The notes under the pieces: generated by a model
What the model was told of the DNA's origin: nothing
Databases searched by the model: none
Seen by the model: only the letters and a program-made list of their open reading frames with translations
In this document: one piece after another, positions 1 to 7,788 of the stretch
How positions within the stretch are numbered: position 1 is the stretch's first letter
How the letters are laid out: every line of letters starts with the position of its first letter
DNA from: a virus
Length of the DNA: 38,352 nt
Reading direction: 5' to 3' (one strand)
IMG/VR virus record: IMGVR_UViG_3300008120_000240
Coordinates: 1-38,352 of that record
Position numbers and translations under genes: made by a program

Positions 1-318
1 TATGTTGCTGGTAGATTTAACTGGAATACCATTAACGTAACTTTCCGTGACCCAATCGGTCCGTCAGCAGCTCAAGCTCTTATGGAGTGGGTTCGTTTAC
101 ACGCCGAATCAGTTACAGGTCGTATGGGTTACGCTGCGGGATATAAGAAAAACATTTTCTTGGAAATGTTAGACCCAACAGGTGTTGCTGTTGAAAAATG
201 GATATTACAAGGTACTTTCCTTACTGATGTCAATTTTGATTCGTTAGGTTACAGTGATGATGGGGTGGCAACTATCACAGCTACACTACGTCCTGACAGA
301 TGTATCTTAGTTTATTAA
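1..318 (+). CDS. Tail tube protein, gp19-like (5' end missing)
   Basis: This is the C-terminal 105 residues of a gene that enters from the left edge in frame 1 and ends at TAA 316-318. The protein polymerises into the inner tube of a contractile tail. The visible part has the gp19 family pattern: an aromatic strand (FNWNTINVTF), an aspartate-proline turn, a helix containing ALMEWVRLH, then alternating strands with LDPTGVAVEKW and a final TATLRPDRC strand. The next genes are a gp26-like chaperone and a tape measure protein, as expected for a tail cluster. Four of the six arginines use CGT, as in gp32 and unlike most of the large tail genes, which fits high expression. A strong terminator follows. 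The family call is from remembered pattern, not a search. Confidence 0.82.
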   Translation, partial: YVAGRFNWNTINVTFRDPIGPSAAQALMEWVRLHAESVTGRMGYAAGYKKNIFLEMLDPTGVAVEKWILQGTFLTDVNFDSLGYSDDGVATITATLRPDRCILVY

Positions 319-386: not shown

Positions 387-1136
387 ATGAACGACTACTC
401 ACAATATCTACAAGAAGGTTTTAATTTACCTCACGACGTGGTTGAATTGCCATCACGTGGAAAATTTTATAAAAGTAAGAAATCGTCCCTAAAGGTCGGT
501 TACTTAACAGCTGCCGATGAAAATATTCTATTGGCTGATAATCGTAACAATGATATTATTTCAACACTTCTGAGAAATAAAATCTACGAACATGATTTTC
601 ATCCCGATGAAATGTTGGATTGTGATATTGAAGCCATTTTAATATTCTTGAGAAACACTGCGTTCGGTTCTGATTATAAATTAATATTAAGAGACCCAAA
701 AACACTTGAAGAGTTTGAAGTAACAACTCAATTGGATGAACTTAATATTAAAAAACCATTACACGAACCTGATTCTGAAGGTCATTTTACATTTGTATTA
801 CCAGTTGGTGGACAAAAAGTTAAATGTAAATTGTTGAATGGTTATGACCAAAAAGAATTAAAAAAGTTCGAAGACGCTTACCCAAAAGGTATAATGGCGC
901 CCACACAAACAAAAAGGTTGGAGATGCAGATTGTTTCAATAGATGAAACTTCAGACAAAGGAGAAATTGCAAAATACATTCAACAAATGCCAATTGCAGA
1001 CTCAAAATTCATAAGAAATTCGTTAAGAGATTCTGAACCAAGATTGGATTTGGAAAGAGTATTTACAGCCCCGTCAGGAGAAAAAGTGAGCGCAAGAATC
1101 ACTTTCGGGGCAGAATTTTTTCGTCCTTTCTTCTGA
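387..1136 (+). CDS. gp26-like tail/baseplate assembly chaperone
   Basis: The 249-residue protein starts at ATG 387. Its N-terminal half has the pattern of the T4 gp26 baseplate family: ELPSRGKFY near residue 21, GYLTAADENILL near residue 38, then helices ending in LIFLRNTAFGSDYKL. T4 gp26 has 208 residues. The family acts during assembly and is thought to equal the tail-assembly chaperone of other phages, working with the tape measure protein, whose gene follows. The zero frame ends FGAEFFRPFF-stop. A +1 (or -2) shift at the TTTTTT run near 1116-1121 would continue into the short reading frame ending at 1305. There is no Shine-Dalgarno sequence, and a terminator T tract ends three bases before the start. 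Family assignment is fairly sure; the frameshift is inferred. Confidence 0.75.
   Translation: MNDYSQYLQEGFNLPHDVVELPSRGKFYKSKKSSLKVGYLTAADENILLADNRNNDIISTLLRNKIYEHDFHPDEMLDCDIEAILIFLRNTAFGSDYKLILRDPKTLEEFEVTTQLDELNIKKPLHEPDSEGHFTFVLPVGGQKVKCKLLNGYDQKELKKFEDAYPKGIMAPTQTKRLEMQIVSIDETSDKGEIAKYIQQMPIADSKFIRNSLRDSEPRLDLERVFTAPSGEKVSARITFGAEFFRPFF
1113..1124 (+). other. Candidate +1 or -2 ribosomal frameshift site
   Basis: Zero-frame codons are GAA TTT TTT CGT. Skipping one T, or slipping back two, continues as FFVLSSDYRKIMMDEFYYL into the reading frame ending at 1305. That frame is open from 1090, well upstream of its first ATG at 1150. The shift point lies five codons before the zero-frame stop, as in known G/GT tail chaperone pairs. 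Confidence 0.5.
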
Positions 1137-1149
1137 TTATAGAAAGATT

Positions 1150-1305
1150 ATGATGGATGAGTTCTATTACTTATCCAAGTATGTACACTTCTCATATGGA
1201 GACATGATGAGAATGCCAATTTTTGAGAGAAAATACTTTATTAACAAACTTGTTACCGAGTTCGAAAAAAAGAATGAAGCTGCGGAAAAGGCAAGAAATA
1301 AATAA
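1150..1305 (+). CDS. Short tail-assembly chaperone extension (T domain)
   Basis: This 51-residue frame begins MMDEFYYLSKYVHF, contains MMRMPIFERKYFINKL and ends with a charged helix. It lies exactly between the gp26-like chaperone and the tape measure gene. Proteins at this place in many contractile-tail phages are made as a frameshifted extension of the chaperone, with short helical segments and a motif of the type P-x-(F/Y)-x-R-(R/K)-(Y/F)-F. The frame is +1 relative to the upstream gene and open from 1090, so a fused product of about 305 residues is possible. It could also start independently at ATG 1150 or 1153, but no Shine-Dalgarno sequence is present. It was too short for routine gene calling. 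Confidence 0.6.
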   Translation: MMDEFYYLSKYVHFSYGDMMRMPIFERKYFINKLVTEFEKKNEAAEKARNK

Positions 1306-1332: not shown

Positions 1333-3036
1333 ATGTTTTTACAAGAAACTACAGGTACAGGTGCGGGTGGTGGTCCATCGATAAGTGATGCTTTAAACGC
1401 AGCTAAAAATTCTTTTACTAAATTACAAGATAGTATTTTTGACTTTGAGGACCAAGTTTCACGAGTAAATCGTCAAGTACTTGGTCAGGGCAGTATTTAC
1501 GCTAAATCAATGAGAGAACAGTTCGCTAAGGCGACCACAGATGTTCTTAGTATTGGTGGTAGTTTGGATGATGTTGCAAACACTTTTGCGGCAATTAACA
1601 AAGTCATGCAAAAAAACACTATGTTATCAAGTCAGGAATTGGCAAATGCGGTGGCTCTTCAAAAATCTGCAGGTATTACCGCTGCCGAATATGCTGATTT
1701 AGTTGAGGCTTTTGATAGTATCGGTGTTGGACTGGAATCAACCGTCGGTTCTATTGATGATTTAGCTGCAAAGGCTAGAAGTCTTGGTTTGAATGTTAAT
1801 ACTTTTTTAGCGGCAACTGCAAAAAATTTAAAGTTAGTAAATTCATACGGATTCAAAGACGGTGTTGATGGGTTGACAAGAATGGTGGCTCGTGCACAAG
1901 CACTTAGAATTGATATGACAAGTGTCAAGGGACTTGCGGCAGATTTATTGAACCCTGAAAAGGCAATTGAGTTAGCTGCAGAATTTCAAAATTTAGGTGG
2001 GGCTATAGGTGCTTTAGGTGACCCATTCCAACTGATGAACATGGCGCAAAACGATATGGAGGGTTTACAAAACTCAATTATCGATGCAACAAAAGCCTCT
2101 GTTCAGTTTAATAGTCAAACAAAAAGATTTGAAATTTCAGCACTTGAGATGAGGAGATTGAGAGCATTTGCGAGTGCTACAGGTCAGGATTACGAACAAC
2201 TGGCCGATAGTGCCGTAAGGGCTGCAAAAGAAACACAAGCATTTGAAGATGTTAAGTTTTTAGATGTTGATAGTGACAAAAAACAATTAATAGCCAATTT
2301 AGCGAGATTAAATAAGGACGGTAAATTAGAAATCCAACTACCTAATATGGATAAGGCTGTTGAGTTAACCGAATTAACAGCAAAACAAGTTGAGGATGCT
2401 TATGGTCAGTTAAAAAAACAAGATGAGGTTAATCAAATGAGTGCTAAAGAAATTGCTGAAAAACAATTATCGGCTCTTGAATCAATAGTAGTTGCACTAT
2501 CAACACCTGCCGGAAGATTGGCAGCAGGTATTGGTGGTAGTGACAAATATATTGGGGCAACTCAAAATGTTAAATCTGTTGCTCAACAAGTACAACAGGG
2601 ATTGGAACAAGTATTTACAGAGCAAAATTATGATAGAATTTCTGATACAATAACTGAAAAACTGAAGCAACAAATTCAAGATGTTGATTTTAGTTCGTTT
2701 GAGAGTTTAGGTGCTGATTTGGTTGATAAGGCAAAAGAGGCAGTAAAAAATATATTTTTAGGTATTGCGGAAGTAATACCAACACCGTTAGATAGTAATC
2801 CTTTACCAATAACGTATACACCAATATCGCCTACACAGACATCTTTACCAACAACCCCAACAGATGCAATGGCGTCATTAAGTGTTGATAACATGGAGAT
2901 TAAACACACAGGTGTTGTAGAAGTAAGGGGAATTACTGAGAATTTGAATATTGCTTCTCTGTCTCAATCACAACTACAAGAGTTGGGAACAAAAATTAAA
3001 TCGGCGATGGGAAGTCAATTCTTAGCCACGGGTTAA
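1333..3036 (+). CDS. Tail tape measure protein, gp29-like
   Basis: The 567-residue protein sets tail length and fills the tube lumen before ejection. T4 gp29 has 590 residues; at roughly 1.5 angstrom per residue this one predicts a tail of about 85 nm. The first 400 residues are almost entirely helical and alanine-rich, with regions such as VANTFAAINKVMQKN, SVKGLAADLLNPEKA and AIELAAEFQNLGGAIGALG that are typical of tape measures. A proline/threonine-rich linker near residues 480-520 (TPISPTQTSLPTTPTD) precedes a small C-terminal domain. It follows the chaperone pair and precedes hub genes, the standard order. A TATTTAT motif sits 22 bases before the ATG, which has an A-rich leader. The function rests on composition, size and position. 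Confidence 0.75.
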   Translation: MFLQETTGTGAGGGPSISDALNAAKNSFTKLQDSIFDFEDQVSRVNRQVLGQGSIYAKSMREQFAKATTDVLSIGGSLDDVANTFAAINKVMQKNTMLSSQELANAVALQKSAGITAAEYADLVEAFDSIGVGLESTVGSIDDLAAKARSLGLNVNTFLAATAKNLKLVNSYGFKDGVDGLTRMVARAQALRIDMTSVKGLAADLLNPEKAIELAAEFQNLGGAIGALGDPFQLMNMAQNDMEGLQNSIIDATKASVQFNSQTKRFEISALEMRRLRAFASATGQDYEQLADSAVRAAKETQAFEDVKFLDVDSDKKQLIANLARLNKDGKLEIQLPNMDKAVELTELTAKQVEDAYGQLKKQDEVNQMSAKEIAEKQLSALESIVVALSTPAGRLAAGIGGSDKYIGATQNVKSVAQQVQQGLEQVFTEQNYDRISDTITEKLKQQIQDVDFSSFESLGADLVDKAKEAVKNIFLGIAEVIPTPLDSNPLPITYTPISPTQTSLPTTPTDAMASLSVDNMEIKHTGVVEVRGITENLNIASLSQSQLQELGTKIKSAMGSQFLATG

Positions 3037-3078: not shown

Positions 3079-6000
3079 ATGGACAGTCCATTATCGTTTG
3101 GAGCAACAGAAAAATTTAGAAAAGACTTACTTGTAAAGAACCTACCACCTTACAAGAATCAAAACTTTTCTTCAAATGGTAGTGCTGGTGAATCTGAGTT
3201 TAGACTTAGAGAGTTTAGTGTTGCTGATAGTCCAAGTTTGGACCAAGTAGGTGATGTTAAAGAACAAGAATTGTATGCTAAAAATGCATACGGGCCGGGT
3301 AGTAGTAATGGTTACGGTTCTATGGTTGATATTAATAAAGACTATGGAACGAAATCAAATTTAGGTCCGTACAGTAATAGTGGTGGTGAACCAGGTAAAA
3401 CAACAGAACAATCACAAAAAGACGCATATATTCAAAATACTTTTGGTCCTGATAATGGTTATATTTATTCACCAACAATACAAAATGTACATAAAGTAAT
3501 TGCTGAAAAAGACGCCTACTTTAATTATATTTCTTCAGTATACCCATTATCGTCATTATTCCTTAATGAAAATCCAAGAGGTAGTAATGGTTCTTTAGCT
3601 CAGGATAGTCCAATGATGCAAATTGCAGCTCAATCTCTAAGGGCTGAGTTACAATATAGAATAGCACAAGAAACTTACGAAAATACTTTTGGTAGAGTTA
3701 ATTTATTAGATGCCCTTAAAGACCCATTTCAAGCAGCTGAAATACTTTCAGGTAGAGCACCGTTAATTGAAAAAGATTGGCAAATTTCAGTACCAGGTAG
3801 TTTAGCCGGTAAAGGTTTAGATTTTTTAAGTAGAATAACAGGTGTTTATTCACCTTATTCTTGGATACCTGGTGATTATTTTGCAGTTGACGGTAAAAAA
3901 AGTTTTATAAATCAGACTATAAATTTTGTTGGAAGTTTACTTGGTAGACCACAATTATTACCGACAACAAAAAATGGTTCAGATATTTTCTTAGCAAATA
4001 CGGGACAAGGTTCTGTGTCTGCGTTATTTTCGGCTCTTGAGTACAATAACTTTAGACCTGATTACAAAGCCAATTTTATTGGAGATTTAAACTTAGGTGC
4101 TCCAAAAGGAAATTACTATGTTGGTAGTAGAACACAAGACCCTGACAATATGGTCTTTCCTAATGACGAGTTACCTGTTGACCCATTAGGAAGAAGAGTT
4201 AAGGTTGCCGTACGTGGATATAGTGAAGTTGCAAAAATTTACGAAAATAATCAAAATTTTGCATTTGGACCTGGTGAGTCGGAACCTTCTGATGGTGCAG
4301 GACAACAAGGTGGATTCACATGGATATCTCCTAAAACAAAAGGACAAGCCGGTAAAAAAGTTGGTCAGGGTGGTAGAATAGAAGGTGAAGACCCAAACTG
4401 GCCTTCAATAAGTTCTCAGTTCGATAAGAGTGAGTCTACTGATTTTGCATTGAGAGATGGGTCCATTATGGACGATACTCAAAGACTGGTCAACGCAGCT
4501 GATGGTTTACCGGGTAATGCTAGATTAGGTCACGTAGGTAATGCGATTAACCAAACATCAAAAGTGTTTTGGGATGGAACAAGAGAAATTACTAAAGGTT
4601 CAAGAGTAAAAAGATATGTAAATCAAAATGGTGCTGAAGTTGGTAGAGAGTATTGTAGAGTATTCACAAAAGATACTCCATATATGGCGTTTAACGACCT
4701 TCAGAAAACAGATGGTAATATTCGTAAATTCACATATTCAGTTTTAGATAATACCTATAATTTAAACATAGCACCAATTAACGGTGATGAGTCAACAAAT
4801 ATTGTTGATGGACAAGTAAAAAAATATATGTTCTCACTTGAGAACTTGTCGTGGAGAAGTACTGACTTACAACAAGATTTACCTGCATGTGAGAAAGGAC
4901 CTAATGGTGGTAGAATTATGTGGTTCCCCCCATATGATTTAAGTGTTGATGAAAGTGTTTCGGTAAGTTGGAATGATAATGTATTCTTGGGTAGACCTGA
5001 GCCGATATACACATATAATAACACAAGAAGAACTGGTGGATTAAGATTTAAAATAATTGTAGACCATCCTTCAATCCTAAATATGTTAGTAAATTATGAG
5101 TTACAGAATGTGACTCCTGATTCACAGGTGACTAAAATTATTGATTCATTCTTTGCGGGATGTAAAGACTATGATATCTATGAATTGGCTCAAAAATTCA
5201 CAACACTAACATTCAATGAAATTTTTGATGTTGTTGAAAAAACAAAAAACATTGAAGATTTTAAAAAGGCGGTTAAAGAAATTCCTGCAACAAACCCACA
5301 AAAAGCTGACGAGGGGGAAAGTATACCTACCTTCGATATTAGTGATTTAAAATTATACTTTGATAATGATAATCCTGACCCAAAGACTTATTCTATAACA
5401 TCATCGGTAGATTATACCGATACGTTTGATGCTTACACAGGTCAACAAACAAGTTATGTTGCAAACGCATCTGAATCACAAAAACAACCTGTACAGACAT
5501 TCTTTGATACTGAGATTATTCCTAATTATCAAATATTTGAAACATTCTTATCACGATTAAAAGAAGTGACAGACCAAGGATATCCTGTACAATTTACAAT
5601 TGCAGGTTCAGCATCATCACCTAACAGTAGTGAATACAACAAAAACCTTTCGGCAAGAAGGGTTGATTCGGTTATTAAATCAATTAGGGGGTATGAAGGT
5701 TTGGACCAAATGGTTAATAATGGTATGATAAGAATTAACCAAGTGGCTGCGGGTGAGACAAGTGTTGGTCAAACAGGTGTTGATTGTCAAAACACCCCAA
5801 CAACGGACCCTGATGCAACATACTCGGTAGCTGCGATGGGTTGTAGAAGAGTTCAAATCACATCTATTCAAACATTACCTAAAGTTCAAGGTGAGACTCA
5901 AGTACAGAGTGATGAAATCACAAACACCCCAACGACAGGTGACAACAACGCAAATACAAACTCAAGCCCAAGACAACAAACATCACAAGAACTACAAATC

Positions 6001-7788
6001 AAAGAAGGGTTGTCTAAAAAAGTATTGAGAAGATTATTAACAGAGTGTAACTATTTCAATTTGATAAAAGAACAAGACCCGTTCTTGTATGATGGTATTA
6101 AACAACAAATTGCTTTCTTTAATCCTTCTTTCCACTCAATAACACCTGAAGGTTTAAATGCCAGATTAACGTTCTTACAACAATGTTTAAGACCGGGTAA
6201 TACTATACCTGTGATTGGTCCCGATGGTAAACCATTACAGAATGATGCGTTAAACACGTCGTTTGGTGCACCACCTATCTGTATTTTAAGAATCGGTGAC
6301 TTCTTCCATACCAAGATTGCAATAACTCAAATGTCAATTCAATATGAACCTTTATTATTGGATATGAACCCTGAAGGTATTGGAGTTCAACCAATGTTGG
6401 CTGACGTTAATATTTCATTTAATTTTATAGGTGGACATGGGCTTAAAGAACCTGTTGCTCAATTACAAAACGCATTAACGTTCAATTATTATGCTAACAC
6501 TGAAATGTATGATGAAAGAGCGGTTGCAACTGAAGATACAACAACATTTGATTTACAATTAATTGAGGAGGTTTTAAAAACGGTTCCTTTACAAAACGTT
6601 GATTTTGGTCAACAATCGCAAAATGAAGCGGGTACAACAATTGGTGTTACTCAAAGTAAGATATTAAGTAATTCAGGAACAACAATTACCGGTACAACAT
6701 CAATGACTCAAATTATGAATGATTTGATTGATGCAACTAAAGTTTATACCGACACAACATTGTCAGTTCTTGAAAATATTAACACTTCATATTTGGTTGG
6801 TGGATTGAGAATGTTTACCAAAGATAGAAAGTACATTACGGGTGAGTTCGGTCAATATGCTAGTAGTAGTTCTGACAATGTACAAACAAGTTTGTTTGGT
6901 AAATCTGATTCATTACAAAGTAAGATAGACCAAGTGTTTGCTTCAGCATTAAGTGATGTTGATGATGATACATCACCATTACTTGTTGGATTTACAAATA
7001 ATTCAAGAAACGTTAACAACAAAGACTTAAGAATATTCAAAAAGAATTTAAAAGCCTTAATCACCGCTAAGAAAGCTAATTATTCCGCTATTATGGAAAC
7101 CAAGTTAAATGATTTGGTAACCAAGGAACAGTTGTTAATTAGGGTTGTTGATAAAGTAAACTTTGTACAAACTGAAACAGATGGATTCAAAAGAGGGGGT
7201 ACACCAATATTATATGGGTTGACAGCAACAACGCAGGTGAATGAAACATCAACAGGAGCTTCTAACACATTAGAAGAGTTAGTAAACGACTATAAAACAA
7301 TAGCTACGAACATAAACACGTTCTACACTAACTTACAATCATACGGTATTATGACTGCCGATTGGGATAATACACAATCGTTTAGTTTCTTATACCCTTC
7401 AATTAATACTGCGGCACAGAAAAGATGGTGTATTATTTTCTCTGAAGATATTATGAAAAATAAAACACAATTTGTTTTAGATTGTTTGGGTCCTGAACTT
7501 CAAAAAATACCAGTTTGGTTTGATGGAGTGACCGCTGACGTTAATACGTTAAGTGTGGATTACCAAAAGAGTTTGGAAGCATCAACTAAATTATTTACAG
7601 ATTTCAAAAACAACTACTACAATAGTGTATTTAACTTATATCAACCTTACATTAGAACTAAGACAAGGATATTTGATTTCAGTAACATAACAACACCAAG
7701 TCCTGCTCAAACAGAAAACTTTAATTTATTGTATTCTGGTGTGAACAGTAAAGGACCAAATTGGAATAATAAACTAAAACTTGACTAA
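3079..7788 (+). CDS. Large baseplate protein with OmpA-like domain
   Basis: This 1569-residue protein occupies the place where T4 encodes the tube-cap/initiator proteins gp48 and gp54. Around residues 630-676 the run FLGRPEPIYTYNN then RRTGGLRFKIIVD resembles a strand-rich tube-initiator or hub fold. Residues about 806-930 match the OmpA/MotB C-terminal pattern: a strand (VQFTIAGSASSP), then NKNLSARRVDSVIKSI, an IRINQVAAGET strand, and a terminal RRVQITSI. That domain binds peptidoglycan in cellular proteins. A Q/N/T-rich linker separates it from a C-terminal half of about 600 residues that I do not recognise. The N-terminus is rich in glycine, serine and asparagine. The stop overlaps the next ATG (TAATG), indicating translational coupling. 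The baseplate role is inferred from context. Confidence 0.65.
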   Translation: MDSPLSFGATEKFRKDLLVKNLPPYKNQNFSSNGSAGESEFRLREFSVADSPSLDQVGDVKEQELYAKNAYGPGSSNGYGSMVDINKDYGTKSNLGPYSNSGGEPGKTTEQSQKDAYIQNTFGPDNGYIYSPTIQNVHKVIAEKDAYFNYISSVYPLSSLFLNENPRGSNGSLAQDSPMMQIAAQSLRAELQYRIAQETYENTFGRVNLLDALKDPFQAAEILSGRAPLIEKDWQISVPGSLAGKGLDFLSRITGVYSPYSWIPGDYFAVDGKKSFINQTINFVGSLLGRPQLLPTTKNGSDIFLANTGQGSVSALFSALEYNNFRPDYKANFIGDLNLGAPKGNYYVGSRTQDPDNMVFPNDELPVDPLGRRVKVAVRGYSEVAKIYENNQNFAFGPGESEPSDGAGQQGGFTWISPKTKGQAGKKVGQGGRIEGEDPNWPSISSQFDKSESTDFALRDGSIMDDTQRLVNAADGLPGNARLGHVGNAINQTSKVFWDGTREITKGSRVKRYVNQNGAEVGREYCRVFTKDTPYMAFNDLQKTDGNIRKFTYSVLDNTYNLNIAPINGDESTNIVDGQVKKYMFSLENLSWRSTDLQQDLPACEKGPNGGRIMWFPPYDLSVDESVSVSWNDNVFLGRPEPIYTYNNTRRTGGLRFKIIVDHPSILNMLVNYELQNVTPDSQVTKIIDSFFAGCKDYDIYELAQKFTTLTFNEIFDVVEKTKNIEDFKKAVKEIPATNPQKADEGESIPTFDISDLKLYFDNDNPDPKTYSITSSVDYTDTFDAYTGQQTSYVANASESQKQPVQTFFDTEIIPNYQIFETFLSRLKEVTDQGYPVQFTIAGSASSPNSSEYNKNLSARRVDSVIKSIRGYEGLDQMVNNGMIRINQVAAGETSVGQTGVDCQNTPTTDPDATYSVAAMGCRRVQITSIQTLPKVQGETQVQSDEITNTPTTGDNNANTNSSPRQQTSQELQIKEGLSKKVLRRLLTECNYFNLIKEQDPFLYDGIKQQIAFFNPSFHSITPEGLNARLTFLQQCLRPGNTIPVIGPDGKPLQNDALNTSFGAPPICILRIGDFFHTKIAITQMSIQYEPLLLDMNPEGIGVQPMLADVNISFNFIGGHGLKEPVAQLQNALTFNYYANTEMYDERAVATEDTTTFDLQLIEEVLKTVPLQNVDFGQQSQNEAGTTIGVTQSKILSNSGTTITGTTSMTQIMNDLIDATKVYTDTTLSVLENINTSYLVGGLRMFTKDRKYITGEFGQYASSSSDNVQTSLFGKSDSLQSKIDQVFASALSDVDDDTSPLLVGFTNNSRNVNNKDLRIFKKNLKALITAKKANYSAIMETKLNDLVTKEQLLIRVVDKVNFVQTETDGFKRGGTPILYGLTATTQVNETSTGASNTLEELVNDYKTIATNINTFYTNLQSYGIMTADWDNTQSFSFLYPSINTAAQKRWCIIFSEDIMKNKTQFVLDCLGPELQKIPVWFDGVTADVNTLSVDYQKSLEASTKLFTDFKNNYYNSVFNLYQPYIRTKTRIFDFSNITTPSPAQTENFNLLYSGVNSKGPNWNNKLKLD

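Follow-up and report, generated by a model that had tools for sequence, protein, structure and literature searches.

A probable programmed +1 ribosomal frameshift joining a gp26-like tail chaperone to a short C-terminal domain

In the DNA analyzed here, a virus record of 38,352 bases (referred to below as the window), a gene for a gp26-like tail assembly chaperone is followed in the +1 frame by a short open reading frame that is conserved with it. Comparison of related sequences indicates, with a probability that we put at about 0.88, that a programmed +1 ribosomal frameshift makes two proteins from this one gene, i.e., the chaperone itself (G, 249 aa) and a fusion with the additional domain (G-T, 305 aa). 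The zero-frame ORF spans positions 387-1136 and ends ...GAEFFRPFF followed by a TGA stop codon at 1134-1136. In the +1 frame, a TGA at 1087-1089 precedes an open stretch (1090-1305) whose first ATG is at 1150, and a run of six T (T6) is found at 1116-1121. The coordinates given in an earlier sequence-only reading of the window all proved exact on recheck. The candidate frameshift fusion proposed there is supported by the conserved frame relation and by selection on the +1 frame. That reading did not mention the hairpin 5' of the site, the rarity of the A-site codon, the -1 shifts proposed below for other T4-like phages or the likely reason for the T4 exception. The features discussed below are the following:

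1..318, + strand: C-terminal part of the tail tube gene (gp19-like), the upstream neighbor (phrog_4542 tail tube, E 1e-21)
387..1136, + strand: zero-frame G protein, a gp26-like hub/tail assembly chaperone of 249 aa (PF12322, phrog_150)
1068..1111, + strand: hairpin 5' of the slip site, with covariation and an invariant CCCC/GGGG pairing
1074..1082, + strand: bulge UCAGGAGAA within the hairpin (GGA in 94/94 and GAA in 89/89 at codons 231 and 232)
1119..1122, + strand: most likely slip site, UUU_C, where the P-site UUU would re-pair to UUC (TTT in 94/94 at the slip codon)
1122..1124, + strand: A-site arginine codon CGT (CGN in 94/94 near representatives)
1134..1136, + strand: zero-frame stop codon TGA, four codons past the slip codon (distance kept in 81/94)
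1123..1305, + strand: T domain after the predicted +1 shift, 60 residues, stop codon at 1303-1305 (pN/pS 0.065; three predicted helices)
1333..3036, + strand: probable tape measure gene, 567 aa (position; annotation of relatives)

The G protein matches the family PF12322 (T4_baseplate, gp26/gp51) with 29.7 bits, above the curated cut-off of 24.5, and phrog_150 (“baseplate hub”) with E 3e-11. A Pfam gp19 match of the upstream neighbor (E 4e-4) falls under the cut-off. The 567-aa ORF downstream of the T domain has no family match of its own in Pfam or phrog, and its probable identity as the tape measure gene is based on its position and on its relatives, a tape measure gene being annotated at the equivalent place in phages immuto and LIS04. 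The chaperone gene is therefore located between the tail tube gene and the probable tape measure gene, i.e., at the position of the G/GT genes of tailed phages. Further downstream, a 1569-aa ORF (window positions 3079-7788) has weak OmpA-like similarity at 818-893, short of the cut-off (E 0.025).

The frame relation was followed in two groups of homologues. A search of viral contigs yielded 80 close homologues and a profile search 80 more (the near clade), while a second profile search yielded 80 homologues of a distant clade. The near set comprises 160 loci including the window, represented by 94 sequences under 90% nucleotide identity. In all 160 loci the zero-frame stop codon is found a few codons past TTY TTT CGN, and the +1 frame encodes the same short domain, within which a few of the contigs end. 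Among the 94 representatives, the distance from the slip codon to the stop codon is four codons in 81, five in 1 and six in 12. None of the 160 near loci has both parts in one uninterrupted frame, the arrangement that the sequence-only reading had named as the mark of a sequencing indel; the comparison that it suggested thus speaks against such an error. The +1 relation is also kept in 86 distant loci, which gives 246 loci in total with a second ORF behind a conserved shift site, and it is seen in the named phages immuto, Mel-JY01, LR756508, RM378, SP-15, GXN1, LIS04 and QdP_Psa3. In the distant loci the site reads TTT TTT followed by TGG, TAC, TAT or TTC, with one case of CTT_TGG. A pattern scan for the complete element returned at least 120 stretches, with the +1 arrangement in all 80 among the matches listed, many of these loci being contigs already present in the homologue sets. 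The window has one copy of the extended motif, as compared to 0.01 expected by chance.

A number of loci display other arrangements. A distant member (L247, 2711-2971) reads TTC TTC TGG with the T ORF in the -1 frame, which may stem from a sequencing indel or from a real switch of direction. In phage QdP_Psa3 (L270, 1223-2663), two ORFs separate the tail tube from the next large ORF; a +1 ORF follows the second of them, which ends TTC TTT_CCC_TAA. In five MAG contigs, mostly from rumen or gut (L166, L168, L169, L173 and L175), the G-protein relative is not followed by a T ORF; L173 carries a T-like ORF (E 1e-6) at the edge of the contig, upstream of G.

Purifying selection on the +1 frame is strong. 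In pairs that are 75-93% identical, pN/pS is 0.065 in this frame as compared to about 1.5 in the other two, and third positions hold 1083 of the 1809 differences. The fold predicted for the T domain consists of three helices (residues 2-21, 25-30 and 33-59; pLDDT 93), and PDB fold searches with the T domain and with gp51 returned no match. In the annotated relatives examined, the T ORF is either unannotated or listed as a separate hypothetical protein, except in Cygsa01, where it is annotated as “putative baseplate hub assembly catalyst”.

The position of the shift is narrowed by the reading frames themselves. In L100 and similar members, a +1-frame stop codon is located immediately 5' of GAATTTTTT, which confines the shift to a few codons. 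Within these codons, re-pairing one base ahead (to UUC or UUU) is good only for UUU, and TTT is found at 1119-1121 in all 94 near representatives. Two members (L139 and L141) read TTC TTT_CGC, which speaks for the second Phe codon as the slip codon. The sequence comparison thereby points to the second TTT (1119-1121) as the most likely slip codon, rather than to the T6 run as such. In LIS04, which reads TTT TTT_AGT, the slip would have to occur on the first UUU. All 94 near representatives combine UUU_CGN in the zero frame with an open +1 ORF, as do the PA-X and amalgavirus types of site: the +1 shift of influenza PA-X, established by mass spectrometry, was mapped to UUU_CGU (PMC3498833), and UUU_CGN is the amalgavirus +1 motif (PMC5052127). 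The window lacks a canonical -1 site (X_XXY_YYZ), reading A_UUU_UUU before CGT, and an early stop codon closes the -1 frame in almost all near members. It also differs from the prfB type (CUU_UGA with a Shine-Dalgarno (SD)-like stimulator 3 nt upstream) in having a sense codon in the A site and its AGGAG 38 nt away.

The A-site codon is CGT in 39, CGG in 37, CGC in 15 and CGA in 3 of the 94 representatives. Arginine codons elsewhere in the same genes are CGN in 16% of cases, as compared to 94/94 at the A site, and CGG or CGC in 1.1%, as compared to 52/94, although this conservation is partly due to double coding, i.e., the first base is also needed for re-pairing to UUC and the next two bases start the +1 codon. 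In the main ORFs of the window, CGG and CGC are used 0 times among 371.

Upstream of the slip site, a hairpin is formed by an outer stem (1068-1073 with 1106-1111) and an inner stem (1083-1089 with 1099-1105) closed by a loop (1090-1098), such that the stem ends 7 nt 5' of the P-site codon. Two blocks of synonymous sites are frozen here, GCC-CCN-TCN-GGA-GAA (codons 228-232) and GGG (codon 241), and the CCCC/GGGG pairing is invariant in 94/94. The sequence of the inner stem varies while its pairing is mostly kept (91.7% of cells paired). Cells changed on both sides of the stem number 59 as compared to 24 in shuffles, none of 500 of which reached the observed value, and the covariation score is 0.275 in register as compared to a maximum of 0.116 when slid. 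At one pair, with third codon positions on both sides, 44 distinct sequences have A-U and 30 have G-C. In a tree-based test, the independent correlated changes were few and nearly all in the expected direction, with no single pair significant. No Rfam family matched above the cut-offs. Members of the distant clade form short hairpins of their own at this place (mean MFE -4.7 as compared to -1.4 in windows elsewhere in the gene), and RNAalifold found no common structure in the upstream region of that clade. A refolding hairpin 5' of the site has been found to stimulate +1 shifting in a 70S system, reaching ~60% of the stimulation given by an internal SD sequence (PMC6321510). A pseudoknot between GGAGAA of the bulge and UUCUUC 3' of the shift site was considered and rejected, as the downstream strand would sit within the ribosome; both strands are invariant or doubly coding.

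From these elements we infer how the slip, the hairpin and the two chaperones might operate. The ribosome would hold tRNA-Phe on UUU (1119-1121) while the A site awaits a rare arginine codon, CGU in the window and often CGG or CGC in relatives, and a slow A site would promote a +1 slip. At the mRNA exit side, refolding of the hairpin (1068-1111) may hinder backward movement and favor slipping forward. The tRNA-Phe would then re-pair on UUC one base ahead, and reading would go on through GUC-CUU-UCU-UCU into the T domain. A minority of ribosomes would make the 305-aa G-T fusion in this way, the rest making the 249-aa G protein. If the roles follow those of lambda gpG/gpGT, the tape measure protein would be bound by G, and G-T would bring in subunits of the tail tube.

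Other explanations differ in what they assume about the stimulator, the direction and the nature of the event. A +1 shift could be stimulated not by the hairpin but by SD-like pairing of AGGAG (1076-1080) with 16S rRNA. This motif is part of the near-invariant bulge UCAGGAGAA of the near clade, and in the distant clade an SD-like motif is found ~31-37 nt upstream in 33 of 59 representatives as compared to about 3 in control windows. However, the 38 nt between AGGAG and the slip codon are far beyond the short prfB spacing, the stems of the hairpin covary, and 17 of the 18 window gene starts checked are devoid of an SD sequence, suggesting that the host may not use SD pairing; we consider this stimulator rather unlikely. 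The tail-chaperone frameshift of phage Mu is a -2 shift, and a -2 shift on the T6 run, which in the window allows re-pairing two bases back, would lead to the same frame with one extra Phe. The sequence-only reading had left the choice between +1 and -2 open. Four members favor the former, since in L139 and L141 (TTC TTT), L081 (TTT CTT_TGG) and L082 (AAC TTT_CTA) re-pairing remains good at +1 and not at -2; with the PA-X shift at the same motif being +1 by mass spectrometry (PMC3498833), a -2 event has a small probability.

The same four members keep the +1 relation with runs of only three T, which argues against transcriptional slippage, where RNA polymerase would drop one U in the T run present at the site; we regard that process as extremely improbable. 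The T domain could also be a separate 51-residue protein, made by re-initiation at ATG 1150, which in the window is located 14 nt past the zero-frame stop codon. Yet ATG is absent up to 14 codons past the shift in 39/94 representatives, ATG, GTG and TTG are all absent there in 6/94, two members (L015 and L146) have no start codon in the stretch checked, and the conserved residues LSS.Y are N-terminal to the ATG position. Independent initiation is very unlikely in view of these poorly conserved starts and of the conservation before them, and it would leave the fixed shift codons and the hairpin unexplained. Finally, a single base would join both frames in the window, as expected from a sequencing indel or a decayed gene, but the same arrangement recurs in hundreds of contigs from different samples with both frames under selection, and the probability of such an artifact is practically negligible.

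While the programmed +1 shift is the preferred reading for the window, other T4-like lineages appear to shift in the opposite direction. In Atu_ph07, PA5oct, RAS14, XacN1, cyanophage DSL-LC02 and Aeromonas phage Ah1, the T domain is in the -1 frame, and the putative shift falls on the homologous Phe-Phe codons. These phages share with the window a homologous gene, the Phe-Phe codons and the kind of T domain, but they have U_UUU_UUY with the T domain in the -1 frame. In all six, the run is preceded by the U that completes this motif, as compared to just 2/94 near and 1/86 distant members of the +1 clades, and the direction therefore appears to be tied to that base together with flanking signals. 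In the +1 lineages, UUU_Y would act together with a hairpin 5' of it, and an effect described for test constructs would thus be put to use in nature. In the record annotations of the -1 loci (L266, L267, L268, L269, L285 and L286), the frameshift is missing.

Phage T4 has been named as the exception to G/GT frameshifting (PMC5009743), and its gp51 is essential with a function called unknown (PMC3004832). Both gp26 (208 aa) and gp51 (249 aa) of T4 match PF12322, the family of the window G protein, along its length, and gp51 carries about 48 additional C-terminal residues beyond the match. The family phrog_634 (“baseplate hub assembly catalyst”) matches T4 gp51 at 147-246, the end of the DSL-LC02 hub gene plus the T ORF in its -1 frame (E 5e-29), and the Cygsa01 T ORF (E 9e-13). 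With a T profile based mostly on +1 phages, the DSL-LC02 T ORF is recovered (E 3e-5), and comparison of the T profile with windows of gp51 singles out the C-terminus at a P of about 2e-4, which is suggestive only. Full-length profile comparison of the G-T fusion with the gp51 family yielded nothing useful. The helices predicted for a gp51 homologue (207-221, 226-231 and 234-248) match the pattern of the T domain. Together, the phrog_634, T-profile and helix matches suggest that gp51 is probably a paralogue of gp26 that carries the T domain in frame, i.e., the G-T form, and the gp26/gp51 pair, two separate genes with no frameshift where the window has one gene with a predicted +1 shift, would explain why T4 is the exception. 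It is reasonably likely that the T4-like G and G-T proteins derive from one ancestral gene with a Phe-Phe shift site used at +1 or -1, which was duplicated in T4 such that gp26 corresponds to G and gp51 to G-T.

Frameshifted tail chaperones are already known. In the lambda-type gpG/gpGT systems the shift is -1 almost throughout (-2 in Mu), whereas in the window it would be +1 and in the T4 gp26 family. As proposed for the window, a frameshift close to the 3' end adds a short helical T domain to a gene located between those for the tail tube and the tape measure protein (Xu, Hendrix and Duda 2004, reviewed in PMC5009743). In influenza A PA-X and the amalgaviruses, as proposed here, CGN occupies the A site while the P-site UUU gives way to UUC, and the window has the exact UUU_CGU, but here the ribosome is bacterial, the gene is different and not homologous, and a 5' hairpin is conserved. 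For the tail chaperones of HF1-like haloarchaeal myoviruses, a +1 TTT-CGC site was proposed earlier, without a test (PMC7230728), and HSTV-2 is also thought to use +1 (PMC5009743). The HF1-like case resembles the window in frame relation, motif and gene position, the motif being close to the end of the gene that precedes the one for the tape measure protein, while those are archaeal viruses for which no hairpin was described (PMC7230728). In the open-access literature searched, we found no report of a +1 chaperone shift in T4-like phages, of a covarying 5' hairpin or of the gp26/gp51 explanation. The window would provide a natural example of a bacterial +1 site stimulated by a hairpin 5' of it, and comparison of lineages that shift +1 or -1 at the same codons would show how the direction is set. 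If gp51 is the G-T form of gp26, the gaps concerning the T4 exception and the function of gp51 would both close, in a manner testable in a laboratory phage. A precedent for such a two-gene form is found in a different phage lineage, where gp143 and gp144 of phage 0305phi8-36 constitute a G and G-T pair that arose by duplication (PMC2147016).
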